NCBI RefSeq assembly: GCF_020165495.1
Contig: NZ_JAIUIE010000005.1
Location: forward strand, 186,001 to 250,000
Direction of reading: 5' to 3'
Source of the DNA: Mesorhizobium sp. BR1-1-16
GTDB lineage: Bacteria; Pseudomonadota; Alphaproteobacteria; Rhizobiales; Kaistiaceae
DNA length: 64,000 nucleotides
Position 1 is the first letter of the stretch. Every line of letters begins with the position of its first letter. A program made the translations under genes and the position numbers. A model generated the notes under the pieces. That model ran no database searches and was not told where the DNA came from. It was given only the letters and a program-made list of their open reading frames with translations. Positions 45,767-51,823 of this stretch are shown here, one piece after another.

Positions 45767-47068
45767 GTGAGCAGCGCTACCGACACGGGGCCAGCGCCCG
45801 CGACGCCCGGCAAAGGCCGCCGCCGCTTCCAGATTCTCATTGTCGCCGTCCTTGCCATCGCTGTCCTGTGGACGGGGGGCTGGTTCGGCCTCCGCCACTA
45901 TGTCGGCGGCAAGCTCGATGTGCTTGAAGCGCGCGCAAGCGCCGAGGGGGCCGTGCTGACCTGCGGCGACCGTTCGATCGGCGGCTTCCCGTTCCGCTTC
46001 GACGTGACCTGCATGCCGCTCGCCGCCGCCTGCCCGGCCGAAGCCGTCTCGCTCGCTCTCGCCGGCATCGAGGCCATCGGCATGGCTTATAATCCGAACC
46101 GTGCGCTCTTTGCCGCGAAGGGACCGCTTGCGCTGCAGGCTCCCGGCGGCGCGCGGCTCGATGCCAACTGGACCTCGCTGCAATCCAGCATCCGCATGGG
46201 ACTTGGCGGACTGAAACTTGGCGGATCGGGATTTGGCGGTTTGAGCCGCTATTCGCTGGTCGCCGACGGGTTCGATGCGACGCTGGCGGATCCTTCGCGG
46301 CTCGCCGCTCCGATCCCGCTGCGCGCCCACCATGGCGAGTTCCATGTCCTGCCCGATCAGGCCGGGGCCGACATGGTCGACCTGTTCCTGTCGCTCGACC
46401 AGTTCACGGCACTGATCCCCGGTCGCCCCGCATTGCCGCCCGTCGATACCGATATCGCCGTCGCCGTTCCGGCCATGCTCGTCACGGCGCATGGTGATCG
46501 TGCCGCCGCCTGGGTCGCCTCGGGCAAGCCGGTCCGTATCGACCAGCTCGACACGACGATCGGTGGCGTCGCCTCCTCGATCACCGGCGAGCTTACGCCC
46601 GCCGCCGACGGCCTTCTGAACGGCCGCCTGACAGTGCGGCTCGACCAGCTCGATCATCTGCCCGACCTCGTCGAGACGCTGAAGCCCGGCAGCGGCGCCA
46701 GGGCACGGCAGATGATCGGGCTCGTCTCGGCGTTGCTGCGCCCCGTCACTGTCGACGGCAAGACCTGGCGCGAGGCGACGGTGACCGTGGCATCGGGCCG
46801 CGCGATGCTCGGCTTCATTCCGCTCGGCACGCTGCCGCGCATCGGCCCGGAACCTCTGGTCCAGCCGCCGGCCTCGACGTTCCCCGCGCCGCTGCCCGAT
46901 ACGTCCGAAGCGCCAAAACCTGTGGCGCCCGCGCCAACCCCGCCGGTCGCGTCGGCCGATCCTTCGGCAGTCATCGCCCCTGGCGGCGAGAGTGCCGGCA
47001 AACCGCTCAATCCGCAGCCGGGCGTCATGACCACCGCGCCGGTCAAGCGCTGCGCCATCACGTCCTGA
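45767..47068 (+). CDS. DUF2125 domain-containing protein
   Basis: Protein of 433 residues, one N-terminal membrane helix (about 19-40) and a long periplasmic domain of the DUF2125 type (FDVTCMPLAA, PLALQAPGGARLDANW, LDQFTALIPGRPALPPVDT), ending in a Pro/Ala-rich tail of about 70 residues. Function unknown. GTG 45767 follows ACGGAGAGA. In Hyphomicrobiales this gene normally borders the prephenate dehydrogenase gene; here the two are parted by the 3.8-kb phage-like cassette. Confidence 0.88.
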   Translation: MSSATDTGPAPATPGKGRRRFQILIVAVLAIAVLWTGGWFGLRHYVGGKLDVLEARASAEGAVLTCGDRSIGGFPFRFDVTCMPLAAACPAEAVSLALAGIEAIGMAYNPNRALFAAKGPLALQAPGGARLDANWTSLQSSIRMGLGGLKLGGSGFGGLSRYSLVADGFDATLADPSRLAAPIPLRAHHGEFHVLPDQAGADMVDLFLSLDQFTALIPGRPALPPVDTDIAVAVPAMLVTAHGDRAAAWVASGKPVRIDQLDTTIGGVASSITGELTPAADGLLNGRLTVRLDQLDHLPDLVETLKPGSGARARQMIGLVSALLRPVTVDGKTWREATVTVASGRAMLGFIPLGTLPRIGPEPLVQPPASTFPAPLPDTSEAPKPVAPAPTPPVASADPSAVIAPGGESAGKPLNPQPGVMTTAPVKRCAITS

Positions 47069-47409
47069 CGACAAGTCCCAAGAAGCGCCCTCGCCCCTGA
47101 GAGACCGCGGCAGGCACCATCCGCTTCACGCCCTTCGCCCCTGACGGACGCCTCTCCGGCGACCCTCGACCCCCGATCGGACTGACGCTTCGGCCCGCCG
47201 CGACCGCGCCGAGCACGGCACTTTATTCGTGACTTTTGCAACTTATAGTTGTATATCGGATAGCAGATGACGGCTGCAGCGCAGGCCCGCTCAGACACCC
47301 CTGCCAGGCAGCCGGTCATCGACTGAAACCCAATGCGCATACCGACGCCAGCCGCAATCACCGCGGTGGTTGTCGCTCGCCCGAATTTTCAAACGCAACC
47401 GGGGGTCTT
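47069..47409 (+). promoter_or_regulatory. AT-rich upstream region of the phage-like cassette with a palindrome
   Basis: This 341-base stretch has no convincing gene. Its middle (47220-47265) is the most AT-rich spot nearby and contains the palindrome CAACTTATAGTTG (47239-47251), several -10-like words (TATAGT at 47244, GATAGC at 47259) and a -35-like TTGCAA (47236). It may hold a promoter and an operator for the cassette, which begins 160 bases later. The rest shows nothing notable. Confidence 0.4.
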
Positions 47410-47817
47410 ATGCCTCTTCGAGTCGACCTTTCGATCTGGCGGGGCAACAACGGCCCTGCCCTCATCTGGACCCTGCCCGACGAGGTACCGCTCGCGGACT
47501 CAGCCTTCTTCCTGACCGTCGCGGCGGCGGGCACCCTGCTGCTCGCCAGGGACACGACGAGCGGAACGCTCGTCCTCGACGCGGAGGCGCGCCAGCTCCG
47601 CCTCGATTATACGACCGCCGAATCCCGGCTGATACCACCCGGCCAGATCGCCGAATATGAGATCGAGCGCCGCAATGCCGGCCTCGAGATCACCGAGCTC
47701 TACGGCTTCCTCGCCGGTCTCGGCGGCCTCAACGCCGACGAAGATGCGAGCAACGGCGTTCAGCTCGACTTCTCCAACCCCGACAATTCGAACCTGCAAC
47801 TCCTGGGATGGATCTGA
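47410..47817 (+). CDS. Phage tail/baseplate-like beta-sandwich protein
   Basis: Protein of 135 residues beginning MPLRVDLSIWRGNNGPALIW and continuing with a strand-rich pattern (FLTVAAAGTLLLARDT, TLVLDAEARQLRLDYTT, AEYEIERRN) like the small immunoglobulin-like proteins encoded just before tail fibres in many phages, resembling BppU-type N-terminal domains. A Gly-rich GGLNADEDASNG region follows. No signal peptide or membrane helix. Start ATG 47410 with a G-rich stretch upstream. It is the first gene of the cassette; the next begins one base after its stop. The assignment rests on pattern and context, not on a clear family match. Confidence 0.6.
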   Translation: MPLRVDLSIWRGNNGPALIWTLPDEVPLADSAFFLTVAAAGTLLLARDTTSGTLVLDAEARQLRLDYTTAESRLIPPGQIAEYEIERRNAGLEITELYGFLAGLGGLNADEDASNGVQLDFSNPDNSNLQLLGWI

Positions 47818-47818
47818 C

Positions 47819-48598
47819 ATGACCGCTTCCGTGACGACCAAGCAGATCAAGGACGCCGCCGGTAACATTTTCCTTCAGCGCGTGCTCGACGCGAGCGGCA
47901 CCGGCGAGGGCCCCTTCCTGCCGCTGACCGGCCTTATCAATCCCGAGGGTGACGGCCCGGTCGACATCGCTGCTCTCGCTGACGCGATCATCGCTGCGAT
48001 CGGCGCTGACGCTACCTTGCCGGCTGGCGCGTCGACCGAAGCAACCCTGGCCGACCTCAACGCCGCCATTGGCGGCACATCCGCCTCTGCAGCCGGCGAT
48101 ACAGGCGCTTCGACCAGCAATGGCTTCCTGCGCTATCTCCGCGACAAGCTTGCCGCTGGCATCACGCTGGGCACGAGCGCCGCGACCATCGGCAAGGTCG
48201 GAGCACAGGTTGCCGGCGCCGACGTGTCGGCAACCAATCCGCTGCCCGTCGGCTCGGCACAGATCGCGAGCGTGACGGCCACCATTGCCAACGGCGCCAG
48301 CCTGTCCAGCGCGGCCGACCTCGGCACGGGCCGGCTCGTCGGCCTGATCATGCCGGCTGCCTGGACGACGGCCTCGATCAGCTTCCAGGCATCTGCTGAC
48401 GGCACGACCTTCTTCAACCTCCATGACGTCGGCGCGGAACGGACGATCGCGTCGAGCGACGCTGTTGCATCGCATTTCATTGCGCTGTGCCTTGCCGACT
48501 GGCTCGGCGTGCGCGCGATCAAGATCCGATCCGGCAGTGCCGATTCTGTCGTCAACCAGTCGGCCGATCGTGTCATCACTCTCGTGACGGCGCGCTGA
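47819..48598 (+). CDS. Phage-like neck/tail structural protein
   Basis: Protein of 259 residues, rich in Ala, Ser, Thr and Gly with almost no Cys. The segment GADVSATNPLPVGSAQI is a phrase typical of phage structural proteins that attach to neck or tail, and the C-terminal part (ASISFQASADGTTFFNLHDVGAERTI, IKIRSGSADSV) looks like a beta-sandwich domain. A low-complexity helical part (about 30-110) could trimerise. ATG 47819 follows the previous stop by one base and the next gene begins three bases later, so the three are tightly coupled. Confidence 0.6.
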   Translation: MTASVTTKQIKDAAGNIFLQRVLDASGTGEGPFLPLTGLINPEGDGPVDIAALADAIIAAIGADATLPAGASTEATLADLNAAIGGTSASAAGDTGASTSNGFLRYLRDKLAAGITLGTSAATIGKVGAQVAGADVSATNPLPVGSAQIASVTATIANGASLSSAADLGTGRLVGLIMPAAWTTASISFQASADGTTFFNLHDVGAERTIASSDAVASHFIALCLADWLGVRAIKIRSGSADSVVNQSADRVITLVTAR

Positions 48599-48601
48599 TC
48601 C

Positions 48602-50845
48602 ATGTCGACCCTGATGGCAAGAAAGCTGGCGCCGCGGCCGTTCTGGCTGCCGCGCGGCGCGACCGAGCACGCCGATTTCACAAATGGGCTCTACTTCGCC
48701 GTCCGGCGCCAGCGGTCAACCTTGGCCGCGTGGCTGGCTGCCAGCGGCCACACCTTCGCCCGCGCATCCGAAGCCAGCTTCGTCGGCGCTGACGGCTTCA
48801 TCGCCTGGGCGTCCGCCAACGCACCACGCGTCGATTACGATCCGGTCGCCTTGACGCCGTTTGGCCTGTTCCTCGAGGGCTCACGGACAAACCTGCAGCT
48901 GCGTTCGTCCGAGATGGATAACGGGTGGAGCGTCTCGGGCATCGCTGTCGTAGCCGATGCGGCGACGGCGCCAGACGGCACGACGACGGCCGATAAGGTC
49001 GCCGAGACAGCGGTAACCAACACGCACGCCTGTTACCGAGGCGTATCGATGACAAGTGGCGTCCCCTACGTCCGATCCTGCTTTGCAAAGCAGGCCGAGC
49101 GGATCTGGTGCTCGCTCAACTATGACTCGATCTACAAGTGGTTTCGCCTCTCCGATGGCACCATCGGGGCCTCAGGCTCTGGCGTTGCCGCGATCCAGCC
49201 AGCGCCGAACGGCTTCTTCAGATGTTCGGTTGTTGTGAGCCCCGGCTCTACGGCCTCTCACCAGATCGGCATTCGAACCTCTACAGGCGATAATGCCGGG
49301 TCTTTCCTCGGAATTGCCGGCTCCGGCATCTATGCGTGGGGCTATCAGCTCGAACAGGCAAGTTTCCCGAGTTCGCCGATCCGCACCGCCGGATCGACCG
49401 CGACGCGTGCCGCAGACATCTTGTCTCGGACCATTGCGCAGCCGGCCAGTCTCACCCGCGTGTTCAAAGTGCGAACGGCGCCAGGCGTTTCCGGCAATCA
49501 GGTCATCTGGTCGATCGGGGATGCCACGAACGGCGCCTTGCTCCGGCGCGCCAGCACCGGCCATATCCTGCTCACCGTCTTCGCCGCCGGCGTCTCCGTC
49601 GTCGACCTCGATGCGGGCGGCGTCGGCAGCCTCGGCGTCCATACGGTCGCCATCGCCCTCGACGGCACCAACGCCAGGCTCTGCCTCAATGGCGGCGATA
49701 TCCTCTCGGCCGCTGCTGCCATGCCCACGCTGACGACGATGATCGAACGGATCGGATCGTCAGCGGCCGGCGAGGAATGGTTCGGCCATATCCAGACGGT
49801 CACGGCCTTTGCCGCACTTGGCGACGCGGAGATGATCGCGCGGACAGCGCCGCCGCAATACATCAATGCCCTGATCGGCATCGACAGCTTGAGCGATCCC
49901 CGCTCGACGGGCGCGGGTCGCTGGCTCGCCGATATCATGAAGGCCCGCATCGGTACCGCGTCAGCGGGCTGGGTTCCTCTGATCTTCACCTCAGATGCCC
50001 GCGTCAACGGCCTCAATTATACCGGTGGGGCGGAGATTTCCCATTCAACCGGTAACGCCGGCGACCCATTCACGCTGGACTTCCAGGGGCACTACTGGTC
50101 GGCGCCGAACAGCACGAGTTCTGGCGGATTTTTCACGCCAAAGGAACCTTACGACCAGTGCGACATGATCTATGTCAGCAATCCCGGTGACGGGTCATTC
50201 CGCTTCCAGTCGACCGGCAATGGAAGCGCGACGGTCGATGGTGACGCCGCGCCGGCGGCACGGAAACTCAGCGTCGAGTGTTTCACGGCTCCGAATGCAG
50301 CAGTGCGATGGGACCAGTTCGAAGACGGTAATCCGAACACGATCGTCGGCGTGAATTTCTCGCGGGCCGGCGCCGGCGGCTTCACTTACAACCCGATGGG
50401 CAATGGGGGTTGGAAAGTCCAATGGTTGGCCGAGATCGACGATGCCGCCATGCGGACGATCATCGGCACGATCCGGCCGACGCACTTCCTGTTCAACGGC
50501 GGCATGAACGATCGTGTCGACAGGACCGCCGTGCAGTTCGACGCCGATTGCCGCAAGGTCCTCGACAACGTCCGGGCTGCCGCGCCGCGTTGCAAGATCG
50601 TCATCATCCAGTCGCTCAATCCAGGCCCGACCGACACGAGCTATTTCGCGTCCTATGTGCCGGTCAAGCAGCAGCTCGCGATCGACTACGCAGCGCAGTA
50701 TCTCGACGAGCGGACGATCAACGCCAACACGGCCACCTATGCGCTCGCCAGCGCCGCCGGCTACATGCAGGACGGTGTCCACCCGACGCTGGCGTTCAAC
50801 CGCGACGTGATCGCACCGTGGCTGGCCGACAACGTCGCCTGGTAG
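48602..50845 (+). CDS. Tail-spike-like protein with C-terminal SGNH hydrolase domain
   Basis: Protein of 747 residues in three parts. Residues 1-270 match tail-fibre attachment regions (FTNGLYFAVRR, RVDYDPVALTPFGLFLEGSRTNL, then a carbohydrate-module-like domain). Residues 280-415 look like a LamG-type lectin fold. Residues 420-747 are an SGNH/GDSL-type hydrolase with GIDS (Ser429), GGMND (Asn636) and DGVHP (Asp724, His727). The block I motif is IDS instead of GDS, but Ser, Asn and the Asp-His pair are kept, so activity against an acylated surface glycan is plausible. No signal peptide. GC content looks lower than in flanking genes. Confidence 0.72.
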   Translation: MSTLMARKLAPRPFWLPRGATEHADFTNGLYFAVRRQRSTLAAWLAASGHTFARASEASFVGADGFIAWASANAPRVDYDPVALTPFGLFLEGSRTNLQLRSSEMDNGWSVSGIAVVADAATAPDGTTTADKVAETAVTNTHACYRGVSMTSGVPYVRSCFAKQAERIWCSLNYDSIYKWFRLSDGTIGASGSGVAAIQPAPNGFFRCSVVVSPGSTASHQIGIRTSTGDNAGSFLGIAGSGIYAWGYQLEQASFPSSPIRTAGSTATRAADILSRTIAQPASLTRVFKVRTAPGVSGNQVIWSIGDATNGALLRRASTGHILLTVFAAGVSVVDLDAGGVGSLGVHTVAIALDGTNARLCLNGGDILSAAAAMPTLTTMIERIGSSAAGEEWFGHIQTVTAFAALGDAEMIARTAPPQYINALIGIDSLSDPRSTGAGRWLADIMKARIGTASAGWVPLIFTSDARVNGLNYTGGAEISHSTGNAGDPFTLDFQGHYWSAPNSTSSGGFFTPKEPYDQCDMIYVSNPGDGSFRFQSTGNGSATVDGDAAPAARKLSVECFTAPNAAVRWDQFEDGNPNTIVGVNFSRAGAGGFTYNPMGNGGWKVQWLAEIDDAAMRTIIGTIRPTHFLFNGGMNDRVDRTAVQFDADCRKVLDNVRAAAPRCKIVIIQSLNPGPTDTSYFASYVPVKQQLAIDYAAQYLDERTINANTATYALASAAGYMQDGVHPTLAFNRDVIAPWLADNVAW

Positions 50846-50862
50846 ACCTCAATCGCCAGATC

Positions 50863-50887
50863 GCGCGGCCGCATCATGCGGCCGCGC
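50863..50887. terminator. Strong bidirectional hairpin at the cassette's downstream edge
   Basis: An 11-bp perfect stem (GCGCGGCCGCA / TGCGGCCGCGC) with a TCA loop, between the convergent spike gene and tyrC. No T-run follows, but the stem is very stable and the place is right for a shared terminator. Confidence 0.65.
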
Positions 50888-50896
50888 AACCGGCTC

Positions 50897-51823
50897 TCAC
50901 GGCTTCGCGTGATCGCGACGGCCGAAATCGGCTTCGGCCGTATCCTGGCCGATCGCGACGATCGAGCGGCGGATCGCGCGCGTCCGGGTGAAGAGATCGA
51001 ACAGCGTCTCGCCATCGCCATTGCGGATTGCCCGCGTCAACGTCGCGAGATCCTCATTGAAGCGCCCGAGCATCTCCAACACGGCATCCTTGTTGTTCAT
51101 GAAGATGTCGCGCCACATCACGGGGTCCGACGCCGCAATGCGCGTGAAATCACGGAAACCAGACGCCGAGAATTTCAGGACTTCCGAGCGGATGCCAGCT
51201 TCGAGATCGGACGCCGTACCGACGATATTGTAGGCGATGAGATGCGGCAGATGGCTGGTGATCGCGAGCACGAGATCATGGTGCTCGGCCGACATCGTCT
51301 CGACATTGGCGCCGAGCGCTCGCCAGAACGCCATCATGCGGGCGACCGCAGCGGGATCGACTTCAGGTGCCGGCGTCAGCACGCACCAGCGGTTGTCGAA
51401 GAGTGCCGCGAAGCCGGCATCAGGGCCCGAATATTCCGTGCCGGCAATCGGATGGCCCGGCACGAACGAGACCGTCGGCGGCAGATGCGGCTGCATCGCG
51501 CGGACAACCGAGGCCTTGACCGAACCGACATCGGAAACGATCGAGCCAGCCTTGAGATGCGGCCCGATCTCGGCGGCGACCGCGCCGCAGGCGCCAACCG
51601 GAACCGAGACGATCACGCAATCGGCCCCCGCGACGGCCTCGGCGGCGGTCGCGAAATAGCGGTCGCCAAGGCGCAGCTCCTCGGCCCGCTTCAAGGTCTC
51701 GGGCCGGCGCGTCGACACGACGATCTCGCCGACGACACCGGCGCGGCGAGCGGCCAGCGCAATGGAAGCCCCGATGAGCCCGATACCGACCAGAGTCAGG
51801 CGGGGAAAGATGATCTCGGCCAT
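50897..51823 (-). CDS. tyrC: Prephenate/arogenate dehydrogenase
   Basis: Tyrosine-pathway enzyme of 308 residues oxidising prephenate (or arogenate). N-terminal Rossmann motif VGIGLIGASIALAARRAG; the catalytic region SFVPGHPIAGTEYSGP contains the conserved His of HPIAG, and the helical dimer domain follows (AITSHLPHLIAYNI, DFTRIAASDPVMWRDIF). Its ATG overlaps the hisC stop by one base (TGATG type), so hisC and tyrC are coupled. Whether prephenate or arogenate is preferred is not visible. Confidence 0.92.
   Translation of the reverse strand: MAEIIFPRLTLVGIGLIGASIALAARRAGVVGEIVVSTRRPETLKRAEELRLGDRYFATAAEAVAGADCVIVSVPVGACGAVAAEIGPHLKAGSIVSDVGSVKASVVRAMQPHLPPTVSFVPGHPIAGTEYSGPDAGFAALFDNRWCVLTPAPEVDPAAVARMMAFWRALGANVETMSAEHHDLVLAITSHLPHLIAYNIVGTASDLEAGIRSEVLKFSASGFRDFTRIAASDPVMWRDIFMNNKDAVLEMLGRFNEDLATLTRAIRNGDGETLFDLFTRTRAIRRSIVAIGQDTAEADFGRRDHAKP

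Follow-up and report, generated by a model that had tools for sequence, protein, structure and literature searches.

Gene transfer agents (GTAs) move host DNA between cells, and to our knowledge the choice of their recipients is known mainly from Rhodobacter. In phage tail-fibre modules a conserved N-terminal adaptor is combined with swapped distal recognition parts, and esterase and lectin-like domains are found in them. Here we describe a cassette of three genes, A, B and C, beside a tyrC-like gene in a stretch of 64,000 nucleotides (the window) from Mesorhizobium sp. BR1-1-16 (Kaistiaceae; contig NZ_JAIUIE010000005.1, positions 186,001 to 250,000), which sits in contig C25 of the 5.2-Mb genome called G000 below. 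Unlike a phage tail-fibre module, this cassette has held its place next to a single housekeeping gene as species diverged, away from the particle that we propose it serves.

The closest described systems belong to the GTA of Rhodobacter capsulatus (RcGTA). The genes for its head spikes and tail fibres lie outside the main cluster (PMC6209664), as does that for the detachable tailspike TspA (Rcc02623; PMC13420450), a pattern that the cassette fits. Like the cassette as we read it, TspA is an off-cluster GTA tailspike-type enzyme beside a housekeeping gene (lysS), with a proposed role in passing surface polysaccharide. It differs, as described, in being a single beta-helix protein, reported to be absent outside Rhodobacterales and, bar a short cap region, from phages, whereas the cassette is a multi-gene module with a putative adaptor, an SGNH match and exchange with prophages. 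According to the same source, a 2026 preprint, the GTA megatron occurs in Alphaproteobacteria outside Rhodobacterales without TspA (PMC13420450).

The RcGTA head spikes Rcc01079/Rcc01080 (PDB 6tb9) are alike in that residues 52-293 of C are homologous to Rcc01080 and in that their locus is unlinked. They differ from the cassette in that no match to the jellyroll base protein Rcc01079 was seen for A or B, in the LamG-like and SGNH parts that the cassette adds, and in the baseplate context of its prophage relative. We take PMC10883770 and PMC7296036 to mean the same gene by Rcc00171, the RcGTA tail fibre. This protein, of the DUF2793 family, is likewise an off-cluster receptor-binding fibre, attached to the megatron (PMC10883770, PMC7296036); it differs in that the short DUF2793 gene of Kaistia stays at the cluster, the module beside tyrC having no DUF2793 match. 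In the open-licence literature we found no paper pairing Kaistia with a gene transfer agent, none joining tail fiber, gene transfer agent and SGNH, and none on such a module swap.

We consider it probable that the three genes serve the resident RcGTA-type GTA as its receptor-binding module, of tailspike type, encoded away from the main cluster. This reading draws on a GTA cluster in the same genome, a complementary distribution of the cassette and the usual fibre/spike pair, a prophage relative in baseplate context, one group of A copies at one place under purifying selection, an exchange of modules and domain homologies.

The GTA cluster and its missing fibre/spike pair

We compared 14 Kaistia genomes, including G000, and 14 further genomes of the family. 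G000 carries an RcGTA-type cluster at about 335-351 kb of contig C1, with 19 open frames from small terminase to DUF2793, in the order TerS, TerL, portal, protease, capsid, gp6-gp15 and a DUF2793 gene of 114 codons. The capsid (PF05065), gp15 or megatron (PF13547) and DUF2793 (Pfam) were labelled by profile; the remaining labels are putative assignments by gene order. Over residues 1-1288 of 1290, gp15 aligns with the RcGTA megatron chain at an expectation value (E) of 1.6e-294, and the capsid of this cluster is the sole PF05065 protein of G000. A megatron gene (GTA_TIM) is present in 14/14 Kaistia genomes, with a second copy only in G006, in a prophage. In G001 the megatron frame is interrupted by a single TAG, and the gene was called in pieces (L076, L087), so that the GTA of this genome may be broken or inactive.

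The cassette had been called an orphan in the first-pass annotation, a term that does not hold: there is a GTA structural cluster in the same genome, and in the genomes with the cassette this cluster lacks its usual fibre/spike pair. Indeed, in seven of the eight cassette-less Kaistia genomes DUF2793 is followed by a gene of 85-111 codons and another of 434-455 codons; in the eighth, G009, the contig ends 133 bases past DUF2793, so that the status of the pair is hidden by an assembly gap. The pair of G011, the one tested, gave phrog_12296 (tail fibre); and phrog_16653 (hydrolase) or phrog_32409 (tail fibre). This cis pair is absent at the cluster in 6/6 cassette genomes. A spike profile search detected the spike in those seven genomes and gave no match in the six cassette genomes, in G009 or in the other 14 genomes of the family. 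The short DUF2793 gene (112-114 codons) stays at the cluster in the 14 Kaistia genomes.

Other genes were observed within the clusters. In G000, two small ones on the opposite strand, by eye resembling a toxin-antitoxin pair of VapBC type, lie between portal and protease (C1, about 338.3-339.0 kb; L080:5345-6028), and an antitoxin-like gene is found near the same place in G012 (L083:19674-19913). An opposite-strand gene, acetyltransferase-like by eye, is present within the GTA cluster of three species (L080:9888-10409, L084:14909-15421, L085:1140-1655).

A conserved place beside tyrC

A and B adjoin tyrC in six of the 14 Kaistia genomes (G000, G002, G006, G008, G010 and G012). The tyrC label is that of the earlier annotation, the gene being taken by position, and it is present in 14/14 congeners. 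In G012, contig C17 has tyrC at its end and contig C27 has A, B and the first part of C at its end, from which we infer a single locus. The cassette has DUF2125 close by in G000 and also in G010, where one extra gene intervenes; in G006 the distance is about 22 kb, and no DUF2125 gene was found in the regions examined around the cassette of G008, G002 and G012. The other eight Kaistia genomes have tyrC and DUF2125 near each other and no cassette, which agrees with the earlier claim that the cassette splits a DUF2125/tyrC neighbourhood. Comparison of the locus across relatives therefore gives presence or absence at one site, with the cassette in 6/14 congeners and thus not in every relative.

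The gap between DUF2125 and tyrC is an insertion spot for other genes as well. An extra 292-codon gene is found there in G010 (L018:8735-9613) and a gene of about 225-235 codons in six genomes with the cis pair (L058:4858-5562); in G006 the gap spans about 22 kb and includes sugar-transport-like genes (C1 3015404-3037717).

The copies of A at the tyrC locus cluster apart from the prophage copies in a tree of A (support 88). They are under purifying selection, with ratios of nonsynonymous to synonymous substitution (dN/dS) of 0.23, 0.19 and 0.43 for three species pairs (tyrC: 0.07, 0.07 and 0.16), and we therefore take A to be a real gene. For G002 and G008 the ratio was 0.18 for B and 0.38 for C; elsewhere these two genes are mostly not comparable because of the exchange described below.

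A promoter-like element (Table 1) is conserved in the aligned upstream regions of the six cassette genomes, about 150-185 bases from A in G000, G010, G006 and G012 and about 50-80 bases in G002 and G008. When up to two mismatches were allowed, we observed exactly one site in 6/6 cassette genomes and none in the other eight, the reversed control giving none; the dyad core alone found the same six sites, its reversed control giving seven scattered matches over the 14 genomes. In Caulobacter, the GTA promoter has an inverted repeat for GafZ between its -35 and -10 elements (PMC11150451); its layout is similar to that of the cassette element and its sequence different, and we draw no conclusion from this. 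The spike, fibre and lysis loci of RcGTA carry putative CtrA half-sites (PMC9638019).

The earlier annotation had left the choice between a domesticated device, for instance for cell targeting, and a prophage remnant. We favour the cell-targeting device; the conserved place beside tyrC, the conserved promoter-like element and the purifying selection across six species speak against a simple prophage remnant.

Prophage copies and exchange of modules

In a prophage of G006, GTA-type baseplate genes are followed by a DUF2793-like gene, by A, B and C and then by lysis-like genes (by eye). In this prophage gp15 was labelled by GTA_TIM, gp12-gp14 by eye and the DUF2793-like gene by the same PHROGs as that of the GTA; A-B-C occupies here the slot of the GTA cis pair. 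Prophages of G012, G010, G000 and G002 carry further copies of A, next to genes that look tail-like by eye. The A-like gene of the G000 prophage (C9, L054:10881-11222) is C-terminally shorter and stands beside an 881-codon tail-like gene.

Between the sisters G006 and G012, identity of B at the tyrC locus is 95% over the first 40 residues and then 13-32%, and that of C is 25%. When the tyrC copy is compared with the prophage copy of the same genome (G006 and G012), B is 48-50% identical at its start, rising to 82-100% further on, and the identity of C is 81% in G006 and 88% in G012, there over the 244 residues before the contig ends. The DNA of the two G006 copies is 83% identical in a single block of 3026 bp, which begins at codon 66 of B and finishes 54 bases short of the stop of C; A and the start of B have no long match. 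The G012 copy is 88.7% identical to the prophage of contig C4 over 1089 bp to the contig end, and agrees with it in 470 of the 480 bases closest to the contig ends. The exchange in G006 is old, as the synonymous distance dS is about 0.5-0.6. From these alignments, B past about codon 66, and C, appear exchangeable between the locus and prophages, with an exchange that may have run one way or the other.

Such traffic could also mean that the cassette is a tail-fibre module deposited at this site by an old prophage or by recombination and maintained, as a store of alleles or a spare part, for co-resident prophages and not for the GTA. The A-like genes beside tail-like genes of prophages in five genomes and the clear DNA-level exchange in G006 and G012 would fit this explanation; against it, the same place beside tyrC and the same promoter-like element recur in six species, A is under purifying selection, none of ten neighbours tested has a phage family, and G008 has the cassette with no other A match in its genome. 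We consider it unlikely, but the strongest of the rivals. Coming back to a module of the GTA, we put forward tentatively, leaning slightly to the doubtful side, that the locus is a chromosomal docking cassette, in which a fixed, carrier-bound adaptor is retained and the recognition modules are swapped time and again with those of tail fibres in resident prophages; prophages would thereby supply and renew the recipient range of the GTA, or the reverse.

No homologue of A was found in the phages, plasmids or viral contigs searched. With prophage A as query one viral contig was recovered, by sequence the G006 prophage itself, and two prophage A queries gave no match against phage records. Among named genome contigs A has two loci, in Kaistia soli and in the G012 contig. 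It is present in 0/14 of the remaining genomes of the family, and an order-wide sample of 397 genomes gave weak A-like matches in four genomes beyond the genus, three of which have an internal stop in at least one match.

Domains of the three proteins

A had been described as a tail/baseplate-like beta protein. The beta part finds weak support in an immunoglobulin-like (Ig-like) fold and the phage affiliation, which comes from this fold, is weak; sequence gave no support. Its fold matches in the PDB are mostly generic Ig-like domains, including antibodies, with phage baseplate proteins in the top row and a few others. A did not match any RcGTA chain, its search giving a designed propeller protein (E 0.00094 over 35 residues). 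B, previously labelled a neck/tail structural protein, has no family above the cut-off, no phage record and no convincing solved relative, and the label has no database support. It did not match any RcGTA chain, its profile leading to a tautomerase at E 0.38, and it has two weak viral-contig loci with an uninformative gene context.

The earlier description of C, a tail-spike-like protein with an SGNH hydrolase, agrees with a match to phrog_5939 'tail protein' (E 6.5e-51) and with an SGNH match marginally above the cut-off (PF13472, 33.1 bits for a cut-off of 32.9). Residues S429, N636 and H727 are candidate catalytic residues by motif only; GMND and DGVH are present, and the block of the candidate serine is outside the profile match. 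The LamG-like part (residues 291-403) is below the cut-off. The AlphaFold model of C (mean predicted local distance difference test score, pLDDT, 40.5) is too poor for judging its fold. In the other cassette genomes the SGNH match falls below the cut-off in C of G002, C of G008 and the C-terminal piece of G012; in C of G010 SGNH-like motifs are present and Pfam gave no match, and C of G006 has no supported match. A separate fourth gene of G002 has an SGNH match of 56.3 bits, well above the cut-off, and a similar gene exists in G008, by sequence and motif only.

The SGNH matches in C and in this fourth gene would suit a secreted or surface-displayed device that modifies polysaccharides and needs no particle. 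Of the matches of C, those with a name are phage tail proteins or the RcGTA head spike, the others being hypothetical or of unknown function, and A is baseplate-like by fold, weakly; we regard a particle-free device as highly improbable, the least credible of the explanations considered.

Residues 52-293 of C match 45-295 of 325 in the head-spike fibre Rcc01080 (E 1.4e-27), whose gene is likewise outside the main cluster of RcGTA, and one could therefore ask whether the cassette encodes GTA head spikes like rcc01079/rcc01080 and not tail spikes. A and B, however, do not match any RcGTA chain by sequence or profile, C does not have the N-terminal Ile-Ala-Leu-Gly repeat that docks Rcc01080 (PMC7296036), A-B-C comes after baseplate genes in the G006 prophage, and the same domain is annotated as a tail fibre in RcapMu. 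Head spikes are in our opinion very unlikely, and we retain a tailspike-type module.

Surroundings of the cassette

The three genes were claimed to be tightly coupled and intact, and the coordinates and open frames agree: the gap is 1 base between A and B and 3 bases between B and C, and all three frames are open. Their coding scores per codon are 0.35 (A), 0.27 (B) and 0.21 (C), nine other genes at 43-56 kb giving 0.20-0.43, and their guanine-plus-cytosine contents are 0.65, 0.67 and 0.64, the mean for the genes of the window being 0.654. Composition and codon usage of the cassette are host-like.

The first-pass annotation saw no integrase, capsid, terminase, portal or lysis gene nearby, which agrees with a Pfam scan of ten neighbour genes, of which nine gave non-phage families and one no match. 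The prophage hallmarks capsid, terminase, portal and integrase are absent among them, and the window contains no tRNA genes. A mobile element with attachment repeats was considered and rejected: 25 direct-repeat families were found in 46900-51100, of which the 20 listed are short and imperfect, none of these 20 convincingly bracketing the cassette.

Table 1. Features of the cassette and its two flanks (positions in the window)
Feature	Position	Strand	Description
Promoter-like element	47226-47260	+	GTGACTT and TATATC boxes, named by eye, around imperfect dyad TRCAAY-N5-RTTGTA
Gene A	47410-47817	+	135 residues; Ig-like beta-sandwich with conserved C-terminal tail; proposed adaptor fixing the module to the particle
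Gene B	47819-48598	+	259 residues; conserved, locus-bound N-terminus (about 66 residues) and exchangeable C-terminal part
Gene C	48602-50845	+	747 residues; spike-like; 52-293 homologous to Rcc01080, 291-403 weakly LamG-like, 584-731 SGNH/GDSL esterase match
DUF2125 gene (left flank)	45767-47068	+	Neighbour outside the module; PF09898, E 2.4e-42
tyrC-like gene (right flank)	50897-51823	-	Convergent with the cassette; nearest conserved neighbour in cassette genomes

Discussion

We propose that A, with its Ig-like fold, and the first 66 or so residues of B would form an adaptor bound to the GTA carrier, the rest of B and C being exchangeable recognition modules. The cassette products would be made from their own promoter, with a timing of expression that, like their incorporation into GTA particles, is predicted from this reading, and would join the baseplate at a putative attachment site on the megatron or the short DUF2793 protein. 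C would combine a domain common with the capsule-binding RcGTA head-spike fibre with an SGNH esterase, whose predicted activity is probably to trim acyl groups of the surface polysaccharide of the recipient; the particle could thereby recognise recipient cells and pass their coat.

Several observations weigh against this proposal. A naive count of 0/6 versus 7/7 for the cis pair amounts to 1 in 1716 and is no test of repeated association, because the genomes split along one branch (support 75) and the pattern may be a single event. A lysozyme-like gene past the cluster is present in the seven cis-pair genomes and G002, and was not found near the cluster end in G000, G006, G008, G010 and G012, where the 125-codon gene after it is kept; its absence in five of the six cassette genomes could mean erosion of the GTA instead of relocation. 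The cassette motif was not found in the GTA regions examined (best 12.7 versus 56-61 bits), so that co-regulation of cassette and GTA is unsupported. As copies of A stand beside tail-like genes of several prophages, the adaptor family is not confined to baseplates of GTA type, and another carrier is possible. The Rcc01080-like domain is also found in ordinary phage tail fibres, including the annotated tail fibre of RcapMu. Finally, in the tree of A, G010 joins G006/G012 (support 81; 82-83% identity) and not G000 (70%), and G000 and G010 are sisters in a tree of nine other proteins (tyrC, hisC, a response regulator and six GTA proteins); A itself may have been exchanged. A tree of A forced to unite G000 and G010 is not rejected (approximately unbiased test, AU, p 0.15), so that descent of A in place is allowed.

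A tail-gene cassette found on its own, as here, need not be the ruin of a phage. Kaistia gives two alternative candidates for recognition, one next to the GTA cluster and the other relocated, and is a testable case of a domesticated particle that exchanges recognition modules with prophages.

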